NCBI RefSeq assembly: GCF_037477895.1
Contig: NZ_CP132745.1
Location: forward strand, 248,001 to 312,000
DNA: 64,000 bases
Reading direction: 5' to 3'
From: Mycetohabitans endofungorum
GTDB taxonomy: Bacteria; Pseudomonadota; Gammaproteobacteria; Burkholderiales; Burkholderiaceae
A program made the translations under genes and the position numbers. Positions 9,664-21,203 of the stretch are shown here, one piece after another. The notes beneath the pieces were generated by a model. The model was given only the letters and a program-made list of their open reading frames with translations. It did not search any database and was not told the DNA's origin. The stretch's first letter is position 1, and every line of letters begins with the position of its first letter.

Positions 9664-10752
9664 ATGACTATGCTTGATGAGGTTTGCGTACTGTCGAATC
9701 CCGGCTCACTGCTGTCGCCGCACGCCCACGTGGCGGCCTCATATGACCTGAAGGTGACCGGCAAGCCGGCACATGGCTACCAGCCGTTGTCGGTGGTGAG
9801 CTGGATCCACAATGCGAATGTGGTGCCCTTCACGATCGACTATCGCCAGCAAACGCATTTGCATGTGGTTAACGGCATGGGTGTCACACTCGGTGACTCG
9901 ATTATTGGATTGAGCGCGCTTGACGCAATCCGACGCCTGCATCCGTCGTTGTCGGTGACGATTTATCGGCCCGCCCATGCGCCAGATTACGTGAAGCAAC
10001 TGTATGCATTGGCGGCACCCCGCTTCGGCGACGTGATCGACTTGCCGGTGCCGCTCGGCTCGATTCCAGCAACCGAACTCGCCATCGACGTTGGTAACCA
10101 TCTTTTCTGGCCCGGCTTTGCGACCCTGCCGATGATTGATTTTTTCCTGTTCGCGCTCGGCATGGCGCCCCACACCGTGCCCGCGCGGTACAAGGCGAAC
10201 GATTGGCTCACCACGCTGACATTACCGGCTCCCGGCAGAGGGTGGTGTGCACGTGGCTATACGTTGTTTTGTCCAGAGGCGAGCACGCCGGTGCGCAGTA
10301 TCCCGGCCGCTGTGCGCGTGTCGATCGTCGATGAGATGTGGCGCACCTTCGGCTTGCCAGTGCTGGGCTTCGGTGCGCTGGAGCACGATCACTATACGGA
10401 TATTGCCGCACTGTCGCCCGATACGGCGAGCTTTCTGAGCTGGGTTGCTCATGCCCGCCACGTGGTGACCTCCGACACGGCCGCGGTACACGTGGCGGCA
10501 GGCTTTAGCGTGCCAAGTACCGCGTATTTCACGACGATCGCACCGGCGCTGCGCGTGCGCGACTATCCACACTGCAAGGCGCTCGCGCTGGACGTGCCGG
10601 AATTGGATGGAATGCAAGTGAGCGAGCGGGCCGCCGACTTGCGTCGGGTCGAGCGCGCGTACCACGAATGGTATGCGGCCCGCGGCAACTGGTTAGCAAC
10701 CTGTGATCGCGCGCCGGGGCAGCTGCTGTTGAGTCAACCGGAGCAGGGCTAA
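9664..10752 (+). CDS. Glycosyltransferase family 9 (heptosyltransferase)-like protein
   Basis: A protein of about 362 residues with two Rossmann-like halves. The segment NGMGVTLGDSIIGLSALDAI then RRLHPSLSVTIYRP, near residue 70, is the acceptor-side pattern of ADP-heptose:LPS heptosyltransferases. HVVTSDTAAVHVAAGFSVPS near residue 270 is the donor-binding D-(S/T)-x3-H-x-A motif. It is unusual in having about 65 residues before the first motif. It probably transfers a sugar to a surface glycan, but no other LPS genes are adjacent, so the acceptor is unknown. An intergenic stretch of about 210 bases precedes it. Confidence 0.7.
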   Translation: MTMLDEVCVLSNPGSLLSPHAHVAASYDLKVTGKPAHGYQPLSVVSWIHNANVVPFTIDYRQQTHLHVVNGMGVTLGDSIIGLSALDAIRRLHPSLSVTIYRPAHAPDYVKQLYALAAPRFGDVIDLPVPLGSIPATELAIDVGNHLFWPGFATLPMIDFFLFALGMAPHTVPARYKANDWLTTLTLPAPGRGWCARGYTLFCPEASTPVRSIPAAVRVSIVDEMWRTFGLPVLGFGALEHDHYTDIAALSPDTASFLSWVAHARHVVTSDTAAVHVAAGFSVPSTAYFTTIAPALRVRDYPHCKALALDVPELDGMQVSERAADLRRVERAYHEWYAARGNWLATCDRAPGQLLLSQPEQG

Positions 10753-10889
10753 CTGGAATCGGGCCAATCGGAACTGGCCCTGCCGGAATTGACGCCAATC
10801 GGGCTGGGCTAACCGGTGCTGAGTCCGCCTACGCTGAGCGTAACCTGCGCCGGTTCGCTCAGCCGACCCGTCGATCGTGCAATAGCGCC

Positions 10890-11504
10890 TCAGAAGCGCA
10901 TTCCGACGCCGATGCCCACCACTAGCGGGTCGATTTTCAACGAGCCAAGCTGCGTGTCACCGATCGATGCGCTGGTGCGCATCCAGATCTTCTTGATGTC
11001 GGCGTTGACGAAAATGCTCTGGGTCACTTGCACGTCCACACCAGCCTGCAGCGCCGGGCCGAAACTGGAATGCTTGATTGACACCGGCGTGCCGCCCGCA
11101 TGCAGCCCATCGTTATAGAAATAAGTGTAGTTCAACCCGGCGCCCACATACGGGCGGATCTTGCCGGCTGGATTGAAGTGATATTGCAACAACAACGTGG
11201 GCGGCAGCACGTTGACACCACCCAATGCGCCGATGTTGGACGTAATCTGGTGCCGCGATGTCCCAAGGATCAACTCGATGCCGATGTTGCGTGTCGCCAT
11301 GTACGTGAAATCGAGTTCCGGAACGATCGCATTGTTGACCCCGGTGCCGAGTTGGCCGAGCGTGCCGCCGGCCGACACGTCGGGCTGAATGCTAATCGCG
11401 CGCAAGCGGGCCAGGATATCACCTTGCTCAGCCTGGACGGGCGCCGCAAACACGACGGGCGCTGCAAGCAGCATGCCGGCTGCGATACGGAAAAGTGCGT
11501 TCAT
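10890..11504 (-). CDS. ompW: OmpW-family outer membrane protein
   Basis: The protein has 204 residues: an N-terminal signal peptide (MNALFRIAAGMLLAAPVVFA...VQA), then an 8-strand beta-barrel pattern with alternating residues, RPYVGAGLNYTYFY, and a C-terminal GVGMRF ending in the aromatic residue needed for barrel assembly. OmpW proteins form narrow hydrophobic channels in the outer membrane and are often induced by oxygen limitation. An FNR-type palindrome lies upstream (11571-11590), and beyond it a hexamer repeat. Confidence 0.9.
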   Translation of the reverse strand: MNALFRIAAGMLLAAPVVFAAPVQAEQGDILARLRAISIQPDVSAGGTLGQLGTGVNNAIVPELDFTYMATRNIGIELILGTSRHQITSNIGALGGVNVLPPTLLLQYHFNPAGKIRPYVGAGLNYTYFYNDGLHAGGTPVSIKHSSFGPALQAGVDVQVTQSIFVNADIKKIWMRTSASIGDTQLGSLKIDPLVVGIGVGMRF

Positions 11505-11570
11505 GGTGTCGTCTTCTTGTGCAATGTTGTGGGTGGGTCATGTATATTGTCGAACGGACGTTCACGCTCT

Positions 11571-11738: not shown

Positions 11739-12632
11739 TCAGTTTTTTTCTGTGATTGCCGACACGAATGTTTGGACGAGTGCGGATGCATTGCTCCGAT
11801 ACAGCATCGCAATGGCAGTGGTATTGCCGGCGCCGGCCAGCCGAATGAAGCGCACGCCTGCTGGCGCGATTAAGCGCATGCTTTCTGCGACCAGTGATAC
11901 GCCGAAACCTGCTTCGATCAGGCTCAGTTGCGTCGTCTTGCGTGATGTCACGCGAGCCGAACGCGGAAAGTAGCCGTTTTTCATGCACAATTCCGCGACA
12001 CGAAAACTCAACCCTCCTCGTTCGTGATGCGGCAGTGACACGAACGGCTCCTCGCGTAGCTCGGCAATCGAAACTGCTTCGCGTACCGCAAGCGGATGTG
12101 TGGCGCTAACGGCCAGCATCAGTGGCTCCGAATAAAGCTCGTCAGCACGCACACCGGGAAATTCCAGGTGAACAGGCAGTCGTACAAAGCCGACATCGTT
12201 CACGCCTTGCTCGATACTCGCCATCTGTTCTTCTGACGGCATTTGGGACACCTGCGCTGAAACGTGCTCGTTGGCGTCAAGATAGCGTCGAACGCGTTCC
12301 AGCAAGGGTCCAGCGAATGGCACCGAGCTTGAATGGACCAGGCGGATGATGCCTTGCTCGCCGCGATTCGCATGACGCGTCTGTACAAGCGTTTCATTGA
12401 GGTTGAACAGTAGACGCTTTGCGCCATCATACAGCGCCTTTCCAGCCCGGGTTAGTTCGATCCGGCGCGCACCGCGCACGAGTAGCTGCACTTGTGCCGT
12501 TGCCTCTAGTTCCTTGATCTGCCTGCTCAAGGCGGATTGCGCGATGAAAAGCCGCTCGGCGGCAAGACTGTAGCTGCCCGCCTCGACGATTTCCACAAAG
12601 TAACGCAGTTGCCGTAGCGACATCATCTCCAT
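11739..12632 (-). CDS. LysR-family regulator, probable regulator of the adjacent operon
   Basis: A protein of about 295 residues with an N-terminal winged HTH (SLRQLRYFVEIVEAGSYSLA, then AERLFIAQSALSRQIKELE) and a periplasmic-binding-protein-like effector domain. It resembles the CatR/CysB/NAC group, so the ligand may be an aromatic or nitrogenous metabolite. It is transcribed away from the eight-gene operon beginning at 12826 and is the obvious candidate regulator. The first ATG (12632) follows AAGG; in-frame ATGs at 12626 and 12623 are alternatives. The direct repeats GCCAAAA at 12654 and 12673 in the shared promoter may be its binding site. Confidence 0.88.
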   Translation of the reverse strand: MEMMSLRQLRYFVEIVEAGSYSLAAERLFIAQSALSRQIKELEATAQVQLLVRGARRIELTRAGKALYDGAKRLLFNLNETLVQTRHANRGEQGIIRLVHSSSVPFAGPLLERVRRYLDANEHVSAQVSQMPSEEQMASIEQGVNDVGFVRLPVHLEFPGVRADELYSEPLMLAVSATHPLAVREAVSIAELREEPFVSLPHHERGGLSFRVAELCMKNGYFPRSARVTSRKTTQLSLIEAGFGVSLVAESMRLIAPAGVRFIRLAGAGNTTAIAMLYRSNASALVQTFVSAITEKN

Positions 12633-12653
12633 GCCTTATTGAGATAGCACTTT

Positions 12654-12679
12654 GCCAAAATGGTATTGGTTGGCCAAAA
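12654..12679. promoter_or_regulatory. Possible operator: GCCAAAA direct repeats in divergent promoter
   Basis: Two copies of GCCAAAA start 19 bases apart in the roughly 190-base gap between lysR and the operon; a smaller CCAA...TTGG symmetry overlaps the first. The position fits regulation of both transcripts. No better evidence is available. Confidence 0.3.
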
Positions 12680-12825
12680 ATTAGCGCGATATATTGCCTG
12701 CGGATTTGGCGGTTAGGTTAAATAATTGGGCTGATAAATAAGGGTCGTAACGAATTCTGTCATTGTTTTCCTATTTCGAGTGATCGATGTAGAACACCGA
12801 AATAGCAATAAATCAAGGACCGCAA

Positions 12826-13581
12826 TTGATCTTCGATCTGACTGTAACGCATTTGTTCATCGTATGGTTAGGGATCGCATTAGCGTATGTCGTGTTCGGC
12901 ATGACTGGGTTTGGCACTGCACTGGTGGCTAGTCCGCTGTTGGCCCAGTTCATACCGGTATCGCACATTGTCCCACTGCTCGCATTGCTGGATTTTTGTG
13001 CGGCCACCACGAATGTAGTGCGAGACGGCAGAAAAGCCGAGCGCGGCGAATTGAAGCGACTGGTTCCTTTGATGGTGGCCGGCAGCGGAATCGGTGCGGT
13101 GATCTTGTTGGTGACGAAACCGGATCTGTTGCTGCTGCTGCTTGGGATTTTTGTGATTGGTTACGCAGCATACTCGTTAAGTGGCTATCGGCCAATGACA
13201 CAATTAAGTTCATGGTCGTCGGTGCCTTTCGGCCTCGTTGGTGGCATCTTCAGCGCGTTATTTGGCAGTGGCGGTTTTATTTATGCGATTTATCTGCAGG
13301 GACGGCTTGAAAACAAGGAGCATATCCGCATCACGCAAACCACGCTGATTGGATTGTCGACGCTTACCAGGCTGGTGATGTTCTTGGCGGCCGGCGTCTA
13401 CGCCAACCGCAGTCTGCTGCTGCTCGCGGTGCTGCTCGCGCCAGGCATGCTGGCCGGCGTGTGGATAGGACGCCGCATTACGCTGAGGCTCTCGCGTGAG
13501 CAATTCGTCAAGCTGGTGAATAGCGTCATCCTCGTATCCGGTGTGTTTTTGTTGGTGCGGTATTTTTCGTCAATTTCATAG
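12826..13581 (+). CDS. TauE/SafE-family membrane permease
   Basis: A 251-residue polytopic membrane protein with two repeated halves (ALAYVVFGMTGFGTALVASP and PFGLVGGIFSALFGSGGFIY), the internal duplication of the TauE/SafE/YfcA family. Members export sulfite, sulfoacetate or other small organic anions. The TTG start at 12826 is preceded by AAGGA. It is the first gene of the operon, so it probably exports or imports the pathway's product or substrate. A gap of 77 bases separates it from the next gene. Confidence 0.85.
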   Translation: MIFDLTVTHLFIVWLGIALAYVVFGMTGFGTALVASPLLAQFIPVSHIVPLLALLDFCAATTNVVRDGRKAERGELKRLVPLMVAGSGIGAVILLVTKPDLLLLLLGIFVIGYAAYSLSGYRPMTQLSSWSSVPFGLVGGIFSALFGSGGFIYAIYLQGRLENKEHIRITQTTLIGLSTLTRLVMFLAAGVYANRSLLLLAVLLAPGMLAGVWIGRRITLRLSREQFVKLVNSVILVSGVFLLVRYFSSIS

Positions 13582-13658
13582 GTTATACCCGGTAGGACCG
13601 GGCGGTTCCATGGCGCTGTAGGCAGTCGCGGTTAGATTTAACGTTACCAGGAGTATCC

Positions 13659-15221
13659 ATGATTCAAAGCACATCCGCGGCATTGAAGCTGGAAGCCGCT
13701 GAGAAGGACGAAATGTTGACGGCTGACGAGTATCTCGCCAGTCTCGACGACGGCCGTGAAGTGTTCATCTATGGTGAAAAAATTCGATCCGTCACGCAGC
13801 ACGTGGCATTTCGCAACAGTGCGAGATCCATCGCTCGGTTGTACGATGCGCTGCATGCACCGGCGTCCCGAGACACCATGACGACACTGGATCCGTCCGG
13901 TTATCGCACGCATTGCTATTTCACCCCAGCGCGTTCGGCCGACGACTTGCTGCGGGCCCGCGCCGCAATCGCACACTGGTCGCGGCTGTCGTACGGCTTC
14001 ATGGGGCGTACGCCCGACTACAAGGCGGGGTTTACCGCAACGTTGCTGTCCGATCCTGACTTCTATGATCCGTTCCGCGACAATGCGATCCGCTGGTATC
14101 ACGAGACGGCGCGCAAGGTGCTGTTCATGAATCATGTCCTGGTGAATCCACCAGTGGGCCGGGCCAAGTCGATTGACAGCATGCGTGACGTCTATCTGCA
14201 TGTGGAGAAAGAGCGTGACGACGGTATCGTCGTGCGTGGCGCTAAGATGGTGGCGACCAGCGCGGCGATATCGAATGCCACGTTCGTGGCACAAAACAGT
14301 GCAACGCAGTACCAGCAGGGTCGGGAAGAGGATTTTGCGCTGTGCTTCATCTTGCCGATGAGCACGCCAAACTTAAAAATTGTTTGTCGGCGCTCATACG
14401 AAGCGTCGTCGTTGAGTCCGTTTGACAATCCATTGTCCAGCCGTTTTGACGAGAATGATTCGGTGCTGATTTTCGATGGCGTGTTTGTGCCATGGGAAAA
14501 CGTGTTGATCTACCGGGATATACCGAAGGCGCGCAGTTTCTATTCGGCCTCGGGATTCCTGAATCGTTATCCGTTGCAATCCGGCACGCGGCTCGCAGTC
14601 AAATTGGATTTCCTTTGTGGCGCGTTGATTAAACTGCTCGAATCAAACGGCAGCTACGAATTCAGAGGCGTGCGCACGAAGGTGGCCGATGTGGTCGGCT
14701 GGCGCAACGCGATGTGGGCGATGACTGAAGCGATGTGCATTGCGCCGCAAAAGCGCAGCGACGGCTCTGTCGTACCGCGGCTCGAAGTGGCGGCGACAGT
14801 GCGGCACTTCGGCGCGCAGGTGATGACCCACATCAAGCCGATTTTCGACACGATCCTCGGTGGCTCGCTGATCATGCAGGTGGCCAGTTTCGCGGACATG
14901 CACAATCCAGAACTGCGTGGGCTCATCGATACGTACTATCAAGGCACCGATTCGAGCGCACAGGAGCGGCTCAAGCTTGTGAAATTGCTGTGGGACGCGA
15001 TCGGCAGCGAGTTTGGCGGCCGGCACGAGCTGTACGAGTACAACTATGCGGGTAACCATGAGCAGGTACGGCTGGACATGCTGAACCATTCCACCGCATG
15101 TGGTGCGATCGACCAATGCAGGTCGCTCGTCGAGCAGTGTCTTGCCGATTACGACGTTGATGGCTGGCGCAATCCGTCATGGCAGTTTGACGGCCAGCGT
15201 GAAGCCTACCCGTTTGCGTGA
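13659..15221 (+). CDS. HpaB-family FADH2-dependent monooxygenase
   Basis: The protein has 520 residues, the usual length of the 4-hydroxyphenylacetate 3-hydroxylase large-component family. It has the N-terminal MLTADEYLASLDDGREVFIY, a middle acyl-CoA-dehydrogenase-like fold with VVRGAKMVATSAAISNATFV, and the FDGVFVPWENVLIYRD segment that is well conserved in the family. Such enzymes use reduced flavin from a separate reductase to hydroxylate phenols, or in natural-product pathways less usual substrates. No HpaC-type reductase is adjacent; the FMN-binding PaiB-like gene five positions downstream might supply flavin. The substrate is unknown. Confidence 0.85.
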   Translation: MIQSTSAALKLEAAEKDEMLTADEYLASLDDGREVFIYGEKIRSVTQHVAFRNSARSIARLYDALHAPASRDTMTTLDPSGYRTHCYFTPARSADDLLRARAAIAHWSRLSYGFMGRTPDYKAGFTATLLSDPDFYDPFRDNAIRWYHETARKVLFMNHVLVNPPVGRAKSIDSMRDVYLHVEKERDDGIVVRGAKMVATSAAISNATFVAQNSATQYQQGREEDFALCFILPMSTPNLKIVCRRSYEASSLSPFDNPLSSRFDENDSVLIFDGVFVPWENVLIYRDIPKARSFYSASGFLNRYPLQSGTRLAVKLDFLCGALIKLLESNGSYEFRGVRTKVADVVGWRNAMWAMTEAMCIAPQKRSDGSVVPRLEVAATVRHFGAQVMTHIKPIFDTILGGSLIMQVASFADMHNPELRGLIDTYYQGTDSSAQERLKLVKLLWDAIGSEFGGRHELYEYNYAGNHEQVRLDMLNHSTACGAIDQCRSLVEQCLADYDVDGWRNPSWQFDGQREAYPFA

Positions 15222-15232
15222 TGAGGTGAACA

Positions 15233-16309
15233 ATGATCTATTCTGGAAAGTGGGACCAGGATGCGCTCGACTATCGGGCGCTGCGCGATCAGTGGCATGT
15301 GGTCGCCCGCTCGGACGATGTGGCACGTGATATGCCGCTCGCCGTGCGCTTGCTGGGCGAGGACTTGGTGCTGTGGCGGAACCATGCCGGCATCAACGCG
15401 TGGCTCGATTATTGCGGTCATCGTGGCGCGCGGCTTTCGCTGGGCTGTGTGCGCGACGGGGAAATTGAGTGCCCTTATCATGGATGGCGTTATGCGTCGT
15501 CGGGACAATGCACGAAAGTGCCTGCGCATCCGGACCAAACGCCGCCCGCACAGCGGCTTGTTCGCGTGTACCGTGTAACCGAACGCTACGGGCTAGTTTG
15601 GGTCTGTGTCGGACAACCGGCAGCTGACGTGCCGCCGTTCCCCGAATGGGATGACGCGAGTTTCCGCAAGGTGTATGCGGGACCTTACCGCTATCGGGCA
15701 AACGCATTGCGCTCAGTGGAGAATTTCCTCGATGCTTCGCATTTTCCATTCGTGCACGCAAATCTAAACGGCGATCCAAATTGTCCCGATAAAATTGAGG
15801 ATTACGAAGTAAAAATGACAGAAAACGGTCTCAAAACTTCGGAAATCGAGGTATTTCAGCCGTATGGCGATCATCGTGGGATCCCGGTTACCGCTCGCTA
15901 TACCTATCACGCTTTTCGGCCCACGACCGCCTATTTCTCGAAGAAGACCGGTGTTATCGAACGCTTTTGCACGTTTCTGAACGCGACGCCCGTTGACGAG
16001 GACGAGTGCGTGATACAGCTCATTGTGGCGATCAACTTCGGTGAAGACTTGAGCGACGCACAAATCCTCCAGCGCCAGGACCGGGTGTTTGAGCAGGATC
16101 GCCACATCGTCGAATCGCAGCGTCCCTATCGGCTGCCACTGGACTTGCGCGAAGAGATGCATGTGCGCAGCGACCGCCTCGCGGTGGAGTATCGACGCTG
16201 GTTGCGTGCGCTGGGTGAGGCTGCAACAGCGGGCTGCAGCGCCCACCAAACCGCTGGCGTGCAACAGCATGCTCGCAGTGAGCATTCAAAGGAGTCGTAT
16301 CATGCATAA
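15233..16309 (+). CDS. Rieske non-haem iron oxygenase, alpha subunit
   Basis: The 358-residue protein has a complete Rieske motif, C61-G-H63 and C80-P-Y-H83, holding the 2Fe-2S cluster. In the C-terminal catalytic domain, NFLDASHFPFVH supplies the two His ligands of the mononuclear iron. Single-component-length proteins of this type hydroxylate, demethylate or N-oxygenate small molecules and need a ferredoxin/reductase from elsewhere. It starts 11 bases after the HpaB-like gene and overlaps the aminotransferase start by 8 bases, so the genes are translationally coupled. Confidence 0.9.
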   Translation: MIYSGKWDQDALDYRALRDQWHVVARSDDVARDMPLAVRLLGEDLVLWRNHAGINAWLDYCGHRGARLSLGCVRDGEIECPYHGWRYASSGQCTKVPAHPDQTPPAQRLVRVYRVTERYGLVWVCVGQPAADVPPFPEWDDASFRKVYAGPYRYRANALRSVENFLDASHFPFVHANLNGDPNCPDKIEDYEVKMTENGLKTSEIEVFQPYGDHRGIPVTARYTYHAFRPTTAYFSKKTGVIERFCTFLNATPVDEDECVIQLIVAINFGEDLSDAQILQRQDRVFEQDRHIVESQRPYRLPLDLREEMHVRSDRLAVEYRRWLRALGEAATAGCSAHQTAGVQQHARSEHSKESYHA

Positions 16310-17708
16310 GCAAACGCTGGATGCATTGTCCATGCTCGAGCATCGTGAGTCCAATGCCCGTACGTATGCACGCTCGATCACTCGCGTCCTCACGCGGGCA
16401 GAGCTTGCGACCGTCTACGATAGTGAAGGCCGTCAATATTTGGACTGCCTCGCGTGCGCTGGCGCGCTGCCGTTGGGACACAATCATCCGTACGTCATGG
16501 AGCGGGTCAGCCAGTTTCTCGCATCGGGCCACATTCTGCAGGCACTGGACATTGCGACGCCGGCGAAGATCGAATTTGTCGAAGCGTTATATCGCGTATT
16601 GCCGCCGCAGTTTGCCAACGATGCCAAGCTTCAGTTTTGTGGGCCGACCGGCTCCGATGCGGTCGAGGCGGCGATCAAGCTATTCAAGACAGTCACGGGC
16701 CGGCGGTCGGTACTGGCATTTCACGGCGCGTATCACGGCATGACGATGGGCGCGTTGAGTCTGATGGGCAACCGGGGGCCGAAGGAAAGCGTGGCCGGGG
16801 CGATGGCAGAAGTGCATTTTTTGCCTTATCCGAATGCCTATCGATGCCCGTTCGGTGTTGGCGGTGCACAAAGCGATACGTTGTCGTTGGCGTATATCCG
16901 CCATCTTCTTGAGGATCCGGAGAGCGGCATCACGAAGCCCGCGCTGATCCTGTTGGAAGCAGTGCAGGGCGAGGGCGGCTGCATTCCGGCCAGTGCCGAC
17001 TGGTTGACCGGATTGTCCGAGCTGGCGCTGCGTCATCAGATTCCGCTTGTTATCGACGAGGTGCAGACCGGCTTCGGTCGTACCGGCACGATGTTCGCGC
17101 ATGAGGTGGCTGGCATCATACCCGACGCGATCATCCTGTCTAAGGCAGTGGGCGGCGGTTTTCCACTGTCCGTGCTCGCCTATCGGCGCTGCTACGACGG
17201 TTGGCGACCCGGTGCCCATGCGGGGACGTTTCGAGGCAACCAGATCGCACTGGTGGCGGGTGCCGCCACGCTCGAATTTCTACGCTCGCACGGCATTGTG
17301 CAACAGGCAGCTGAGCGCGGCGCCAGGCTGCGCGCCGGTCTTGAATCGTTGCAACGGCGCTACGCGTGTATCGGCGACGTGCGTGGTCGTGGCCTGATGC
17401 TCGGCGTCGAGATCGTTGCTCCACACGGTCCGCTGGATGCGCGCGGATTGCCGCCAGCGGAGGGCGAACTAGCGCGACGCATCAAGCATGCTTGCTTGGA
17501 CGAAGGCTTGATCATTGAGACGGGAGGACGTCACGGTGCGGTGCTGCGGCTGTTGCCGCCGCTGATCATTACAGAGGCTGAAACGGACGAAATCCTAGCT
17601 CGTCTCGAACGAGCGTTGTCGACGGTGACCAGCGCGGTGGATGCGCCCTTGCTTACCCCTGACGGTATCGGCCGCAACGCTCACATTTCTGTATCGGAGA
17701 CCTTATGA
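16302..17708 (+). CDS. Class III PLP aminotransferase (diaminobutyrate/ornithine type)
   Basis: The 468-residue protein has FCGPTGSDAVEAAIKLFKT for phosphate/cofactor binding, the IPLVIDEVQTGFGRTG block with the Asp that contacts the PLP nitrogen, and SKAVGGGFPL with the Schiff-base lysine. It resembles diaminobutyrate-2-oxoglutarate transaminases (EctB/PvdH-like), which interconvert an omega-amino group and an aldehyde. In this operon it may form a diamine or amino-acid substrate for the following N-hydroxylase. Its end overlaps the next start as ATGA. Confidence 0.87.
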   Translation: MHKQTLDALSMLEHRESNARTYARSITRVLTRAELATVYDSEGRQYLDCLACAGALPLGHNHPYVMERVSQFLASGHILQALDIATPAKIEFVEALYRVLPPQFANDAKLQFCGPTGSDAVEAAIKLFKTVTGRRSVLAFHGAYHGMTMGALSLMGNRGPKESVAGAMAEVHFLPYPNAYRCPFGVGGAQSDTLSLAYIRHLLEDPESGITKPALILLEAVQGEGGCIPASADWLTGLSELALRHQIPLVIDEVQTGFGRTGTMFAHEVAGIIPDAIILSKAVGGGFPLSVLAYRRCYDGWRPGAHAGTFRGNQIALVAGAATLEFLRSHGIVQQAAERGARLRAGLESLQRRYACIGDVRGRGLMLGVEIVAPHGPLDARGLPPAEGELARRIKHACLDEGLIIETGGRHGAVLRLLPPLIITEAETDEILARLERALSTVTSAVDAPLLTPDGIGRNAHISVSETL

Positions 17709-19144
17709 AAGCAGGACACGACGCCGCCACGGCGCTTGAACCTTGCGTTCACGATGTGATTGGAATCGGCTTTGGTCCCGCCAACATTGCGCTTGCCGTA
17801 GCGCTTGAGGAGCTGACCGACGGCCTCGACGTTTTGTTTCTCGAAAGGCGCGATGCGGCGTGCTGGCAGCAGGGCATGCTGCTGGAGGAGTCGGACATCC
17901 AGAACCATCCACTGCGCGATCTGGTCACGCCACGCAACCCACGCAGTCGCTATTCATTTACCAATTTCCTGTTCGAGAACGGGCGATTATTCGAGCATTT
18001 GAACCTCGGGCTATCGTTTCCATTGCGGATCGAGTATGCGCAGTACGTGCAGTGGGTGGCCGGTTTCTTCGCGCATCAAGTCAATTATGGCGTGGACGTG
18101 ACGAGCATTGAGCCGGTCATCGACGCGCGTTCTGGACTGTTGGATGGCTATGTGGTGCGCGATTGCACTGGTCGCACATGGCGGGCCCGCTCGGTTGTTG
18201 TCGCGCCGGGGCGTACGCCGAACGTGCCGATGCAGTTCGCCGGCTTTGACGATCCGCGCATTGTCCACTTAAATGACTATCTCTTTGCGCTGCGACGGGC
18301 GTGTGACGGCGGCCGCAAGCCGCGCATCGCGGTCATTGGTGGTAGCCAGAGCGCAGTTGAGATTGTGCTGCACGCGTATGGTACCGGCTCGTGCGCGTCG
18401 GTTGTCGGCATCACGCGTAACTTTGCGTTCCGGCAGAAGGACACGAGCCCGTTTTCCGACGAGGTTTATTTTCCTGAATTTGTTCAAACATTCTTTTTTG
18501 CGGACCAGGCAACGCGCAATCGGTTGCGCGCGGAACTGATGCCGACCAATTATGCTTCGGCGGACAAGGACGTACTGGATGCGCTGTACGTCAAGCGCTA
18601 CGTGAACCGAATATTGGGACGTGATGGTTTGGCGATACGGACCAATACGTACGTCGATGCTGTGACGGTCACAGAAGAGGGGATTCGCCTGGCGCTCGTC
18701 AACTCGGTGAGCGGTGAGCATGTGCTCGACTGCTTCGACCTGGTTGTCCTGGCAACGGGCTTTCTTGATATCGGCGACGGTCCGAGGTACGAGCCCTATC
18801 CACCGCTGCTGCGGGAGCTGGCGCCGCTGCTCGACTTGAGCCGCGGGCACCTGGATGTGTCGTTCGACTACCGCGTGCATTTCTCGTGTGCAGTGGCGCC
18901 GGACGCACCGCTGTATTTAAACGGGTTATGCGAGTCATCCCACGGCATGGGGGACTCCGGCTCGTTCAGTCTGCTGGCGTTGCGCTCCGAGGCCATTGCT
19001 CGGTCGCTCTACGCGCAGCTGTCGCGCCCCGCGGCACGCGTCAGTTCGAATGCAGTCGTGCCTTCTGCCACGGCCACTGCGGCCATCCATGATACGGACA
19101 AAAATGGAACCTCTAGCGAACCAACCCGTTTCGTTTCATTATGA
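17705..19144 (+). CDS. L-ornithine/L-lysine N-monooxygenase-like flavoenzyme (PvdA/IucD/SidA family)
   Basis: The 479-residue protein has the FAD motif GIGFGPANIALAVAL near residues 18-32, the NADPH-binding AVIGGSQSAVEIV in the middle, and the late LVVLATGF segment typical of class B N-hydroxylating monooxygenases. Known members hydroxylate the side-chain nitrogen of ornithine, lysine or diamines, the first step to hydroxamate siderophores and N-N or N-O bonded products. No NRPS or IucA/IucC synthetase is nearby, so a classic siderophore role is not supported locally. The C-terminal 50 residues are low-complexity and overlap the next gene. Confidence 0.87.
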   Translation: MKAGHDAATALEPCVHDVIGIGFGPANIALAVALEELTDGLDVLFLERRDAACWQQGMLLEESDIQNHPLRDLVTPRNPRSRYSFTNFLFENGRLFEHLNLGLSFPLRIEYAQYVQWVAGFFAHQVNYGVDVTSIEPVIDARSGLLDGYVVRDCTGRTWRARSVVVAPGRTPNVPMQFAGFDDPRIVHLNDYLFALRRACDGGRKPRIAVIGGSQSAVEIVLHAYGTGSCASVVGITRNFAFRQKDTSPFSDEVYFPEFVQTFFFADQATRNRLRAELMPTNYASADKDVLDALYVKRYVNRILGRDGLAIRTNTYVDAVTVTEEGIRLALVNSVSGEHVLDCFDLVVLATGFLDIGDGPRYEPYPPLLRELAPLLDLSRGHLDVSFDYRVHFSCAVAPDAPLYLNGLCESSHGMGDSGSFSLLALRSEAIARSLYAQLSRPAARVSSNAVVPSATATAAIHDTDKNGTSSEPTRFVSL

Positions 19145-19751
19145 TGCGTTCCGCTTTACTGATCCGGAGCGGATCGACGCGATCATCGACAACTTTCCGC
19201 TCGCGTTGATCGTCAGCACGGACGCGGGGCTATCTCATGCGAGCCATATCCCGCTTTTCCGCGAACGCCAGTCGCGCAATCTATTCGGTCATGTCGATGC
19301 GGCAAACCCTCAGTTCTGTAATGTTAAAACGGCGCGTGCGCGTATTGTGTTCACTGGACCCGACAGCTATATTCCGCCCGAAGCGTACGTGACGCGGCAA
19401 CTTCCGACGTGGAACTACGTGGCTGTCCATCTGGTGGGCTCTGTGCATGTCGTGACCGACCTGGCGCAGAAGATCGACGTGCTGCGTGAGACAGCGGCCC
19501 GCTTGCAGCCCGACGATGCACGATGGCAGTTCGACGCGAATGATGAGCGGGTGGCGCGATTCGCGCCGGGCGTGCTCGCGTTGCGCGTACACGTCGAGCA
19601 TGAGGAGGCGCGCATCAAGCTTTCGCAGGATAAGGGCTTAGAGGACCAGTATGCGGCGCTCGACTGTCTGTTGTCCACGCGCGCGCGTAGTCTGCGGCCG
19701 CTGCTGGAGACATTCCTGCCGCCACGGGAGGGAGCCGCGCATGCTCGATGA
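19104..19751 (+). CDS. PaiB-like FMN-binding protein
   Basis: A protein of about 215 residues of the split-barrel PaiB family (labelled FMN-binding negative transcriptional regulators). Visible are FPLALIVSTDAGLSHASHIP, GHVDAANPQF and VFTGPDSYIPPEAYV with PTWNYVAVHLVG. It probably binds FMN; in this operon it could be a flavin reductase or oxidoreductase partner for the HpaB-like enzyme, or a regulator. The start is at 19104, or 19089 a few codons earlier; either overlaps the monooxygenase gene. Its end overlaps the ATPase start. Confidence 0.8.
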   Translation: MEPLANQPVSFHYDAFRFTDPERIDAIIDNFPLALIVSTDAGLSHASHIPLFRERQSRNLFGHVDAANPQFCNVKTARARIVFTGPDSYIPPEAYVTRQLPTWNYVAVHLVGSVHVVTDLAQKIDVLRETAARLQPDDARWQFDANDERVARFAPGVLALRVHVEHEEARIKLSQDKGLEDQYAALDCLLSTRARSLRPLLETFLPPREGAAHAR

Positions 19752-20811
19752 CGCGCAAGTCGTAGCCTCGCTTCGCAGCAGCGGAATCGAGCCGGACGCA
19801 AGCCAGCGCCGGGCAATCGCAGCGTTATGTATGCTGCTCATGGCACCGGGTCGGCGCTGGCTGGGCGCGCTGCACCGGTTGCATGGCGTGTATTGCCATG
19901 GTCTACCCGGGCGAGGCAAGAGCATGGTCGTCGATGCGGTCTTTCAGCTCGCGCCAGGATCGAAGCGGCGGATTCATTTTCATGAGTTTCTGCGGGATAT
20001 CAATTGCAGGCTTGTGAAGGCACCGCGCAGTAGCGATCGGCTCGCGGACGTCGCGAAGACTTGGCTGCACGGCGTCAATCTGCTGTGTTTTGATGAATTT
20101 CACGTGCATGACATCGCTGATGCGTTTCTTATTGGGCGATTTCTGACAACGGCCATCGCCGAGGGCGTGCGTATTGTGCTCACGTCGAACTATGCGCCGG
20201 ACGATCTGCTGCCGAACCAGGAATACCATGCGCGTTTCGCACCGACGATCGACATGATTAAGCGTCATTTCACGATCGTGCACTTCGATGGACCGCGCGA
20301 TTACCGGTTCAGTGATGCGGATACCGCGCAGCCTCGGTTCTTTTCGCCGCTTGCGCTTGCTCGTGAGCCGTTACGTGCCATTTTCGTCACTCGGGAAGGC
20401 GAAGCTGCGCTGCAACCTGGCGTTATGGAGTTGGCGGGTCGGCCATTGCCGGTGAGCGCTGCGGGCGAGACAACGGTATGGGTGGATTTCGACGTGCTTT
20501 GCATGGCGCAGCGTTCGCATGTCGATTATTTGGCGATGGTTGATCGCTGGCAATGGGTCATCATTGACAACGTCCACGCAATGGCACTGGAAAATCCCGA
20601 TACATTGCAGCGTCTGGTGTGGTTGATCGACATTTTGTATGACCGCAAGTGCGGTGTCTGTATCGCATCGGACATTGCGATCAGCGATGCACTTGAGGGC
20701 CTCGAAGGTGCGCATGATCTATCGAGGACAGTTAGCCGCCTTGCCGAGATGCAGTCTCGTGCCTACGCCGGTTTTACCAAAAATTCACTTACCATGATTC
20801 AGGAGACTTGA
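19741..20811 (+). CDS. AFG1/ZapE-like P-loop ATPase
   Basis: The 356-residue protein has Walker A GLPGRGKS and Walker B LLCFDEFHV followed by DIADAFLIGRF, then VLTSNYAPDDLLPNQEYHAR (sensor region), all hallmarks of the AFG1/ZapE family. Housekeeping ZapE acts at the division ring and the mitochondrial homologue in protein quality control. Here the gene is embedded in a metabolic operon with an 11-base overlap, so this is more likely a pathway-dedicated paralogue, perhaps for cofactor insertion, folding or protection of the oxygenases. The C-terminal third has a family-atypical sequence. Confidence 0.82.
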   Translation: MLDDAQVVASLRSSGIEPDASQRRAIAALCMLLMAPGRRWLGALHRLHGVYCHGLPGRGKSMVVDAVFQLAPGSKRRIHFHEFLRDINCRLVKAPRSSDRLADVAKTWLHGVNLLCFDEFHVHDIADAFLIGRFLTTAIAEGVRIVLTSNYAPDDLLPNQEYHARFAPTIDMIKRHFTIVHFDGPRDYRFSDADTAQPRFFSPLALAREPLRAIFVTREGEAALQPGVMELAGRPLPVSAAGETTVWVDFDVLCMAQRSHVDYLAMVDRWQWVIIDNVHAMALENPDTLQRLVWLIDILYDRKCGVCIASDIAISDALEGLEGAHDLSRTVSRLAEMQSRAYAGFTKNSLTMIQET

Positions 20812-20813
20812 AT

Positions 20814-21203
20814 ATGCCAATCGTCAAAATCGAAGAGCCGCAGCCGCGTACCGCAGACGAGAAGGCGCGACTCGTCGACTTGCTATTCAGCGTACTGCGA
20901 CAAACACTGGGGGTTACTCCGAACGAGTTGCAAGCGAGATACCAGACGTTCGAACCGGAGGATTTTTATCCGCCGGCGGGCACCGGCGAGTATCTGGTGA
21001 TCGAGATCACGCTGTTCGCCGGACGCTCGCTCGATGTCAAGCGCCGACTTTACGAACGCGTTGTCGCGGAGGTGGCGCAGGCGCGTCAGGTTGATCCATC
21101 CCGCATCCTAGTTCTGTTGCGTGAAGAGCCGCTCGACAACTGGGGGTTACACGGCGGCCATGCTGCAACGGACCTAAAGTTCGATTACGCGATTGCGATA
21201 TGA
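20814..21203 (+). CDS. Tautomerase-superfamily protein
   Basis: A 129-residue protein beginning Met-Pro-Ile-Val, so processing leaves the N-terminal catalytic proline of the 4-oxalocrotonate tautomerase superfamily. LVIEITLFAGRSLDVKRRLY and ILVLLREEPLDNWG fit the longer, fused-domain members. The ATG at 20814 lies 2 bases after the ATPase stop, with AGGAG just upstream. It is the last gene of the operon, and such an enzyme would isomerise an enol, oxime or unsaturated acid intermediate. Confidence 0.82.
   Translation: MPIVKIEEPQPRTADEKARLVDLLFSVLRQTLGVTPNELQARYQTFEPEDFYPPAGTGEYLVIEITLFAGRSLDVKRRLYERVVAEVAQARQVDPSRILVLLREEPLDNWGLHGGHAATDLKFDYAIAI

Follow-up and report, generated by a model that had tools for sequence, protein, structure and literature searches.

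A conserved Mycetohabitans operon that most likely combines diaminobutyrate N-hydroxylation with a heme enzyme of the PaiB family

Enzymatic formation of nitrogen–nitrogen (N-N) bonds is rare. According to the excerpted text of a review, no enzyme has been confirmed to form aromatic N-N heterocycles, for example pyrazoles, directly (PMC11705231). The same excerpts describe Apy11 as a hydroxylase of L-2,4-diaminobutyrate (L-DABA) that accepts neither lysine nor ornithine, and they present 5-azaproline as an in vitro product of KtzT (slightly) and PAI2 acting on N4-hydroxy-DABA (PMC11705231). The roles of the heme-ligand His, the Asn, and the catalytic Thr-Lys dyad in this protein family are described in excerpts of PMC13274692 and PMC11705231. 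We analyzed a 64,000-nucleotide stretch of Mycetohabitans endofungorum (contig NZ_CP132745.1, positions 248,001 to 312,000; the window), which belongs to C2 of a two-contig 3.55 Mb genome. Positions 12654 to 21203 of the window hold an eight-gene operon encoding a TauE-type permease, an HpaB-type monooxygenase, a Rieske oxygenase, an aminotransferase, a flavin N-monooxygenase (NMO), a PaiB-like protein, a ZapE-like ATPase, and a tautomerase, with a divergent LysR gene beside it. The pathway of the operon most likely involves N-hydroxylation of DABA and a heme enzyme of the PaiB family.

The distribution of the operon was determined by scanning 84,980 species genomes with the PaiB-like protein as query. 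The scan relies on exact short peptide matches, so distant blocks can escape it, and the PaiB-like protein is present in the block loci by construction. The 93 pattern matches gave 40 loci. Eight of the 40 carry the PaiB-like, NMO, aminotransferase, Rieske, and HpaB genes together, so the possibility raised in the original prediction that the set occurs only in this genome did not hold. These eight loci belong to two Mycetohabitans, Paraburkholderia lacunae, P. sejongensis, P. acidicola, a Caballeronia symbiont, Azohydromonas lata, and Bradyrhizobium BR 10289. All nine genes, LysR included, are found at 58-86% protein identity in the three Paraburkholderia loci and the Caballeronia locus, where LysR itself is 68-70% identical. 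The Azohydromonas block has eight of the nine and no LysR match, and in Bradyrhizobium the core genes other than the aminotransferase match at 41-64%. One Streptomyces locus has the NMO and PaiB-like genes only. Among the remaining 31 loci, the PaiB-like protein was matched at E 1e-8 in 29, of which two also gave a weak match to LysR or the aminotransferase; no block gene was matched in the other two.

Two narrower scans extended this picture. Nine of 398 family genomes match the PaiB-like protein at E 1e-22 or better, and in six the identity reaches 70% or more; the six are four Mycetohabitans, including this genome, and two others that are possibly genomes already counted. The three family matches at 33-34% show no further block gene in the fetched 3.4-3.6 kb stretches. 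Four of 398 phylum genomes match: this genome, one designated G722 (47%), and two at 30-33%, for which block genes were not found within the fetched stretch. The G722 locus contains LysR (43% identical), TauE, Rieske, aminotransferase, NMO, flavin adenine dinucleotide (FAD) oxidoreductase, PaiB-like, and tautomerase genes. HpaB and ZapE were not matched in it, and the HpaB place is taken by a methylisocitrate-lyase-like gene. The core common to the nine block loci is therefore the transaminase, the NMO, the Rieske oxygenase, and the PaiB-like query itself. In the Paraburkholderia blocks (L047, L048, and L049, at about 12300-13250), a partial Fumerase-domain gene follows the tautomerase in three of three. 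The Flavobacteriaceae (L054-L081) contain a coherent group of PaiB-like proteins whose aligned members have a QLPTWNY motif like the block proteins; no other block genes were matched near these loci, save for one weak LysR match.

Within the genus, the block was matched in eight Mycetohabitans plasmid or megaplasmid records at 93-98.6% identity over all 8550 bases (98% of them in one record), and gene calls matching it are annotated in seven of the eight. For all nine genes, dN/dS between the window and eight Mycetohabitans loci is 0-0.33, and the aligned parts lack internal stops; the values against P. acidicola are 0.07-0.20. The highest figures, 0.33 for the NMO and 0.26 for the tautomerase, rest on few changes, and the near-identical figures for HKI456 (L045) and strain B5 (L096) possibly represent one strain. 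Two observations count against the block being kept. M. rhizoxinica B47 (L099) has shortened DABA transaminase and ZapE-like genes, unlike the other seven plasmid records, which suggests local decay, and four small-genome members of the genus have no PaiB-like match. Because the nine genes recur at 58-86% identity in four loci and show this range of dN/dS, the block is more than a chance arrangement. It is a conserved operon and not an artefact, and it is undescribed as far as the open-access literature was searched. No described pathway with this gene set was found there, in agreement with the original prediction. The main text of one Mycetohabitans genomics paper contains zero mentions of diaminobutyr, hydroxyphenylacetate, monooxygenase, or siderophore (PMC12696581), and the operon's key terms are absent from the main text of another (PMC13367373).

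The transaminase and the NMO point to DABA. The transaminase scores 516.5 bits against TIGR00709, above the cut-off of 401.6, but does not reach those of PRK06938 (638.9 of 671) and EctB (377 of 552), which are narrower models. The aminotransferase of the Bradyrhizobium block, 39% identical to the window enzyme, is above the EctB cut-off; because it is EctB-type, the DABA supply there seems to be drawn from another branch. In the window NMO, the motif IQN(H/N)PxRDLVTPRNP has an Arg at the position of a Lys in PvdA, and GD(S/A)GSFSL contains an insertion of one residue. We take the Lys of PvdA and SidA to contact the ornithine carboxylate. NMOs were compared at 21 loci, scoring a DABA transaminase in the fetched flanks at E 1e-40 or better. 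One was present at 11 of 12 Arg-motif loci compared to none of nine Lys-motif loci. The block itself, however, accounts for eight of the 12, and independent support shrinks to three of four against none of nine. The independent Arg-motif loci with the transaminase are from Xenorhabdus, Vibrio, and Agrobacterium; the Leisingera locus is without it. NMOs from siderophore contexts (pyoverdine genes, or GNAT and nonribosomal peptide synthetase (NRPS) genes with FhuF, FhuB, or a TonB receptor) carry the Lys motif. These data make N4-hydroxy-DABA, formed by the transaminase and NMO steps, a probable pathway intermediate.

Other gene arrangements were seen among the compared loci. Xenorhabdus pXT29 (L039) and a Vibrio halioticoli plasmid (L040) share one syntenic cluster type, with 13 of 13 tested Xenorhabdus genes matched in Vibrio. 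It comprises methionyl-tRNA synthetase (MetRS)-like, GNAT, adenylation, cupin, DAO, rhodanese, Arg-motif NMO, and EctB genes, and the two clusters are candidate actinopyridazinone-like hydrazine pathways in Gram-negatives. An Agrobacterium vitis plasmid (L042:8657-20640) has genes for EctB, an Arg-motif NMO, a pyridoxal phosphate enzyme, KAS III, an iron-containing redox enzyme, and a carbamoyltransferase. On a Deinococcus ficus plasmid (L112:8983-15468), a Lys-motif NMO gene stands beside separate cupin and class I tRNA-ligase genes and FAD oxidoreductase and ATP-grasp genes, and the locus looks like another cluster of the hydrazine-synthetase type. Streptomyces sp. NBC_01237 (L032:13708-15606) has a Lys-motif NMO and a PaiB-like domain in a single open reading frame (ORF) followed by very long ORFs; its PaiB part scores better to Bacillus PaiB than to NohD or the piperazate synthases. 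In Streptomyces sp. TSRI0281 (L053), a Lys-motif NMO gene adjoins a PaiB-like gene.

The best PDB matches of the PaiB-like protein, by sequence and by fold, are NohD, PaiB, and the piperazate synthases. His63, Asn68, Thr102, and Lys172 are invariant across a 22-sequence alignment (A2). The original prediction of a PaiB-like flavin mononucleotide protein thus stands for the family and not for the cofactor: a flavin was set aside since heme is what the solved relatives bind, and all 22 sequences retain the heme His. Arg149 is nearly invariant. In the tree, the block proteins form their own clade (13 rows, 100/95), and the piperazate synthases and NohD form a separate clade of seven (100/98) in which NohD groups with Nonomuraea L086 and the synthases, apart from the block proteins; L051 and L052 are long branches. 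Fold comparison does not separate synthase from dehydratase. In Bradyrhizobium BR 10289 (L052:10004-12016), the PaiB-like and MFS transporter domains share one open frame, a hint that the product or a near descendant is exported.

The nearest solved relatives of the Rieske protein are SxtDIOX and SxtT (6wnc, E 1.8e-76), and all 11 aligned rows, of which four are Mycetohabitans, retain the Rieske cluster and iron-ligand motifs. The HpaB protein scores 575 bits against NCBIfam HpaB-2 (TIGR02310), below the cut-off of 885. Its phenol-binding Arg/Tyr/His triad is kept in 10 of 10 rows, again including four Mycetohabitans, and excerpts of the HpaB structure paper have this triad anchoring the phenol hydroxyl (PMC6506529). 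The loop region after AKxVAT differs from E. coli HpaB. Because the triad is kept and the nearby loop differs, the substrate may bear a phenol-like or enolic hydroxyl and is not necessarily 4-hydroxyphenylacetate; a hydroxypyrazole would fit, as a conjecture. An HpaB match in Streptomyces NBC_00846 was set aside, as it adjoins tyrosine aminomutase and other genes. No flavin reductase gene is among the eight; in Azohydromonas and Bradyrhizobium, such genes are found close to the block. A single Flavin_Reduct match occurs in this genome, on contig C1, together with no clear match to a VanB-type reductase (best E 5e-9).

A flavoenzyme gene accompanies the block in other genomes. A pipecolate-oxidase-like gene is present in six of eight other lineages or loci checked. 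The best NCBIfam model for this FAD oxidoreductase is L-pipecolate oxidase in six of six loci having the gene (126-190 bits, cut-off 600), and it lies between the NMO and PaiB-like genes in five of the six. The Bradyrhizobium gene matches in two pieces on different ORFs, and G330 and L050 have an identical oxidase segment and are possibly one genome. The tautomerase starts with Met-Pro, giving Pro1, in 10 of 10 rows, and the Walker motifs of the ZapE-like protein are kept in nine of nine. The block ZapE-like gene is a paralogue of a chromosomal ZapE-like gene (36%, on C1), a second match that argues against its being the sole ZapE. No ZapE-like match was found in the G722 or Bradyrhizobium blocks, and for these two reasons the ATPase is probably accessory. 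TauE is a probable exporter of a small anion, the direction of transport being a prediction.

We propose that the operon would make and export a small N-heterocyclic acid from aspartate semialdehyde, by a route that joins observed family assignments and conservation to predicted substrates and products. The transaminase would give L-DABA, and the flavin NMO would hydroxylate its N4. The resulting hydroxylamine would bind the His-held heme iron of the PaiB-family protein, where, assisted by the Thr-Lys dyad, the alpha-amine would attack N4 with loss of water. The product would be 5-aza-L-proline (pyrazolidine-3-carboxylate), an analogue of piperazic acid with a five-membered ring. Oxidation, hydroxylation, and tautomerization by the Rieske, HpaB, and tautomerase enzymes, joined elsewhere by the pipecolate-oxidase-like flavoenzyme, might then lead to a pyrazoline, pyrazole, or hydroxypyrazole acid, with the order and the product guessed. 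TauE would export the product, and LysR would control the operon. Because the substrate is predicted to be DABA and the heme family acts on N-hydroxylamines, the likeliest kind of product would be a cyclic hydrazino acid or its oxidized pyrazoline or pyrazole form. The original prediction had proposed N-hydroxylation, which is upheld. Its suggested NMO substrates were ornithine, lysine, or a diamine, in place of which the TIGR00709 transaminase and the Arg motif make 2,4-diaminobutyrate likelier. In place of its nitro or oxime product, the cyclic class is favored, an open-chain product being less likely.

N-N bond formation by the PaiB-like protein is the best single reading of the third step, with a chance that falls just short of even. 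Several properties of the protein weigh against it. PaiB also keeps the His, Asn, and Thr-Lys residues, hence they do not discriminate for a piperazate synthase. The window protein has Asp65, Leu100, and Arg149 where the synthases have Asn (H+2), Ala before PTW, and Tyr150, and its clade is not grouped with KtzT, PipS, LnzB, or SbPZS. Confidence in both the DABA steps and this one is tempered by the limited independence of the NMO counts and by the limited diagnostic value of the kept heme-site residues. The best PDB sequence match is NohD (9oqs, 1.3e-24), which has Arg144 at the Arg149 position and which, from PDB titles and names alone, we take to be an N-hydroxylamine dehydratase. A NohD-like dehydratase would form a two-step amine oxidase with the NMO and pass an imine or enamine to the Rieske, HpaB, and tautomerase enzymes, the last of which could serve imine-enamine exchange. 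Dehydration is also described as a side reaction of piperazate synthases in excerpts of PMC11705231 and PMC12150314. However, a plain dehydratase acting on N4-hydroxy-DABA would, after hydrolysis, return aspartate semialdehyde, the transaminase's own substrate, and therefore run a futile loop. The pipecolate-oxidase-like enzyme would be left without a role, the block clade is not nested with NohD, and Lys177 agrees with SbPZS and not with the Leu that NohD has after KLSQD. Dehydration is on balance somewhat unlikely, though the main rival, and the state of the three residues makes both it and an accessory role serious contenders. The latter, which we consider unlikely, would make the protein a heme-binding accessory or regulator in an operon for an open-chain N-oxygenated product, whether a hydroxylamine, an oxime, a nitrone, or a nitro acid. 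Against it, the PaiB-like and NMO genes of Mycetohabitans overlap by 41 bases, and residues Thr102 and Lys172 are invariant. The two genes also stay together in the block loci, although the use of the PaiB-like gene as query means that this proves nothing alone.

Catabolic operons often include genes of the Rieske, HpaB, 4-OT-fold tautomerase, and LysR types, and the operon could degrade an N-compound by Rieske and HpaB oxygenation followed by tautomerase steps, with fumarase-like or lyase steps in its relatives. The Fumerase-like gene downstream in the Paraburkholderia blocks and the lyase-like gene of G722 would fit such a role. A DABA-forming transaminase and an N-hydroxylase in one operon do not, no ring-cleavage dioxygenase is among the eight genes, and, beyond the block, the closest NMO contexts appear to be biosynthetic. 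Since the block is accompanied by a DABA-forming transaminase (EctB-type in Bradyrhizobium), degradation looks less probable than biosynthesis, and we consider it quite improbable; the original prediction had allowed for either making or degrading, and making is favored. A hydroxamate siderophore or hydroxamate peptide cluster would account for an NMO of the PvdA family. This explanation was rejected as very improbable on gene content, the eight genes including no acyltransferase, NRPS, NRPS-independent siderophore (NIS) synthetase, TonB receptor, or FhuF gene, and on the Lys motif of siderophore-context NMOs, where the window NMO has Arg. Returning to N-N bond formation, an extended and tentative proposal, somewhat less likely than not, is that Proteobacteria recruited a PaiB-family heme lineage, distinct from the actinobacterial piperazate synthases, for closing a five-membered N-N ring on N4-hydroxy-DABA, and that the block converts 5-azaproline to a free pyrazoline or (hydroxy)pyrazole acid without an NRPS.

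The features of the locus are collected in Table 1. The original prediction had described eight same-strand ORFs and a divergent LysR gene. All are present, each ORF gets the Pfam family named for it, and LysR is divergent as described but lies outside the span then given to the operon. The junctions had been described as mostly overlapping or within about 11 bases, and six of seven are. The Rieske-aminotransferase (8 bases), aminotransferase-NMO (4), NMO-PaiB (41), and PaiB-ZapE (11) genes overlap, and HpaB-Rieske (11) and ZapE-tautomerase (2) have short gaps; the TauE-HpaB gap is 77 bases. The PaiB-like start, inside the NMO end, is the start annotated in HKI 454. The LysR-TauE intergenic stretch contains the invariant runs AGATA, TTGC, and GATATATTG in four Mycetohabitans and four Paraburkholderia/Caballeronia sequences and is a candidate promoter/operator from its conservation. 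A generic promoter scan gave one match compared to a shuffle mean of 0.8, and promoter and terminator scans gave none clearly exceeding shuffles. As predicted, no ring-cleavage gene was found among the eight by Pfam. The predicted absence of an NRPS gene holds for the operon but not for the neighborhood in B3, B14, and HKI 454. B3 and B14 (L093 and L094, near 10400-11550) have a ~13.5 kb NRPS gene on the opposite strand, ~0.8 kb downstream of the tautomerase, and HKI 454 has adenylation and carrier-protein genes ~6.6-9.4 kb downstream of the operon. No NRPS gene is annotated within 1.5 kb in the other five plasmid records. An integrase-core remnant lies between the tautomerase and the NRPS gene in B3.

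Table 1. Features of the operon and its flank, in window positions.
Feature	Position	Strand	Basis
LysR-type regulator	11739-12632	-	Pfam LysR_substrate and HTH_1; divergent
Candidate promoter/operator, conserved LysR-TauE intergenic stretch	12640-12700		Sequence conservation
TauE/SafE (TSUP) permease	12826-13581	+	Pfam TauE 108 bits; TTG start
HpaB-type flavin-dependent monooxygenase, oxygenase component	13659-15221	+	Pfam HpaB_N and HpaB
Rieske non-heme iron oxygenase	15233-16309	+	Pfam Rieske and VanA_C
Diaminobutyrate:2-oxoglutarate transaminase-family enzyme (class III aminotransferase)	16302-17708	+	TIGR00709 516.5 bits
Flavin N-monooxygenase (NMO), predicted L-DABA N4-hydroxylase	17705-19144	+	Pfam Lys_Orn_oxgnase (PF13434) 271 bits
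PaiB/piperazate-synthase/NohD-family protein, predicted heme	19104-19751	+	Pfam FMN_bind_2; ATG start
ZapE/AFG1-like P-loop ATPase	19741-20811	+	NCBIfam ZapE 309 bits, above cut-off
4-Oxalocrotonate-tautomerase-superfamily enzyme, N-terminal Pro	20814-21203	+	Pfam Tautomerase_2

If the proposed route is correct, the operon would represent a natural free-standing route to five-membered N-N rings in the form of a cyclic hydrazino acid, and its PaiB-like protein would be an independent heme-family branch for asking what decides between N-N bond formation and dehydration. The product would be a conserved metabolite made by a fungal endosymbiont and by plant and soil bacteria. Even if one of the other explanations holds, the block is an uncharacterized conserved pathway whose first three steps are testable.

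Two described routes to N-N bonds were set apart from the operon. KinJ-type hydrazine formation uses a different family with a ferredoxin partner, and PaiB is absent from the available text (PMC12154649); Dob3-type diazo formation was separated by text terms, the available part of PMC13061610 containing no Rieske, diaminobutyrate, or piperazate terms. The window HpaB and E. coli HpaB (4-hydroxyphenylacetate 3-monooxygenase) belong to the same family over ~490 residues with the phenol-anchoring triad kept, whereas the window protein falls short of the equivalog cut-off, has a different loop, and has no reductase gene beside it in the operon. SxtT and SxtDIOX, the closest to the window Rieske protein among solved structures, hydroxylate a saturated N-rich heterocycle. 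The nearest plasmid relative of the Rieske protein outside Mycetohabitans is 44% identical, and four such loci, on Rhodococcus, Pantoea, Nostoc, and Leptolyngbya plasmids, were rejected as related blocks, having no other block gene among their neighbors by annotation.

Pyrazomycin/pyrazofurin and formycin also reach a pyrazole ring via an N-hydroxylated amino acid, according to the review excerpts (PMC11705231), but they derive from hydroxylysine and form the N-N bond intermolecularly with a hydrazine synthetase. The actinopyridazinone (apy) pathway has a DABA N4-hydroxylase (Apy11; excerpts of PMC11705231), the function predicted for the window NMO from its family and DABA-transaminase linkage. 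In the Xenorhabdus and Vibrio apy-like clusters, too, a DABA transaminase accompanies an NMO, which has 46-49% identity to that of the window; they differ in containing MetRS-like and cupin genes, with a DAO relative that is only distant, whereas the window operon has neither MetRS nor cupin. NohD shares the fold, the Arg at 149, and the highest PDB sequence match, but the window protein belongs to a separate clade with Lys and not Leu after KLSQD and Asp and not Ala at H+2, and plain dehydration would be futile by the logic of the operon. The piperazic acid pathways (KtzI/KtzT, PipS, SbPZS, and LnzB) have the same pairing of a flavin N-hydroxylase with an adjoining PaiB-fold protein carrying the heme His, Asn, and Thr-Lys. 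The window operon differs from them in a PaiB-like protein that has its own clade and lacks the synthase Tyr, Ala, and Asn, in having no NRPS gene, in its predicted use of DABA and not ornithine, and in the addition of the Rieske and HpaB enzymes.

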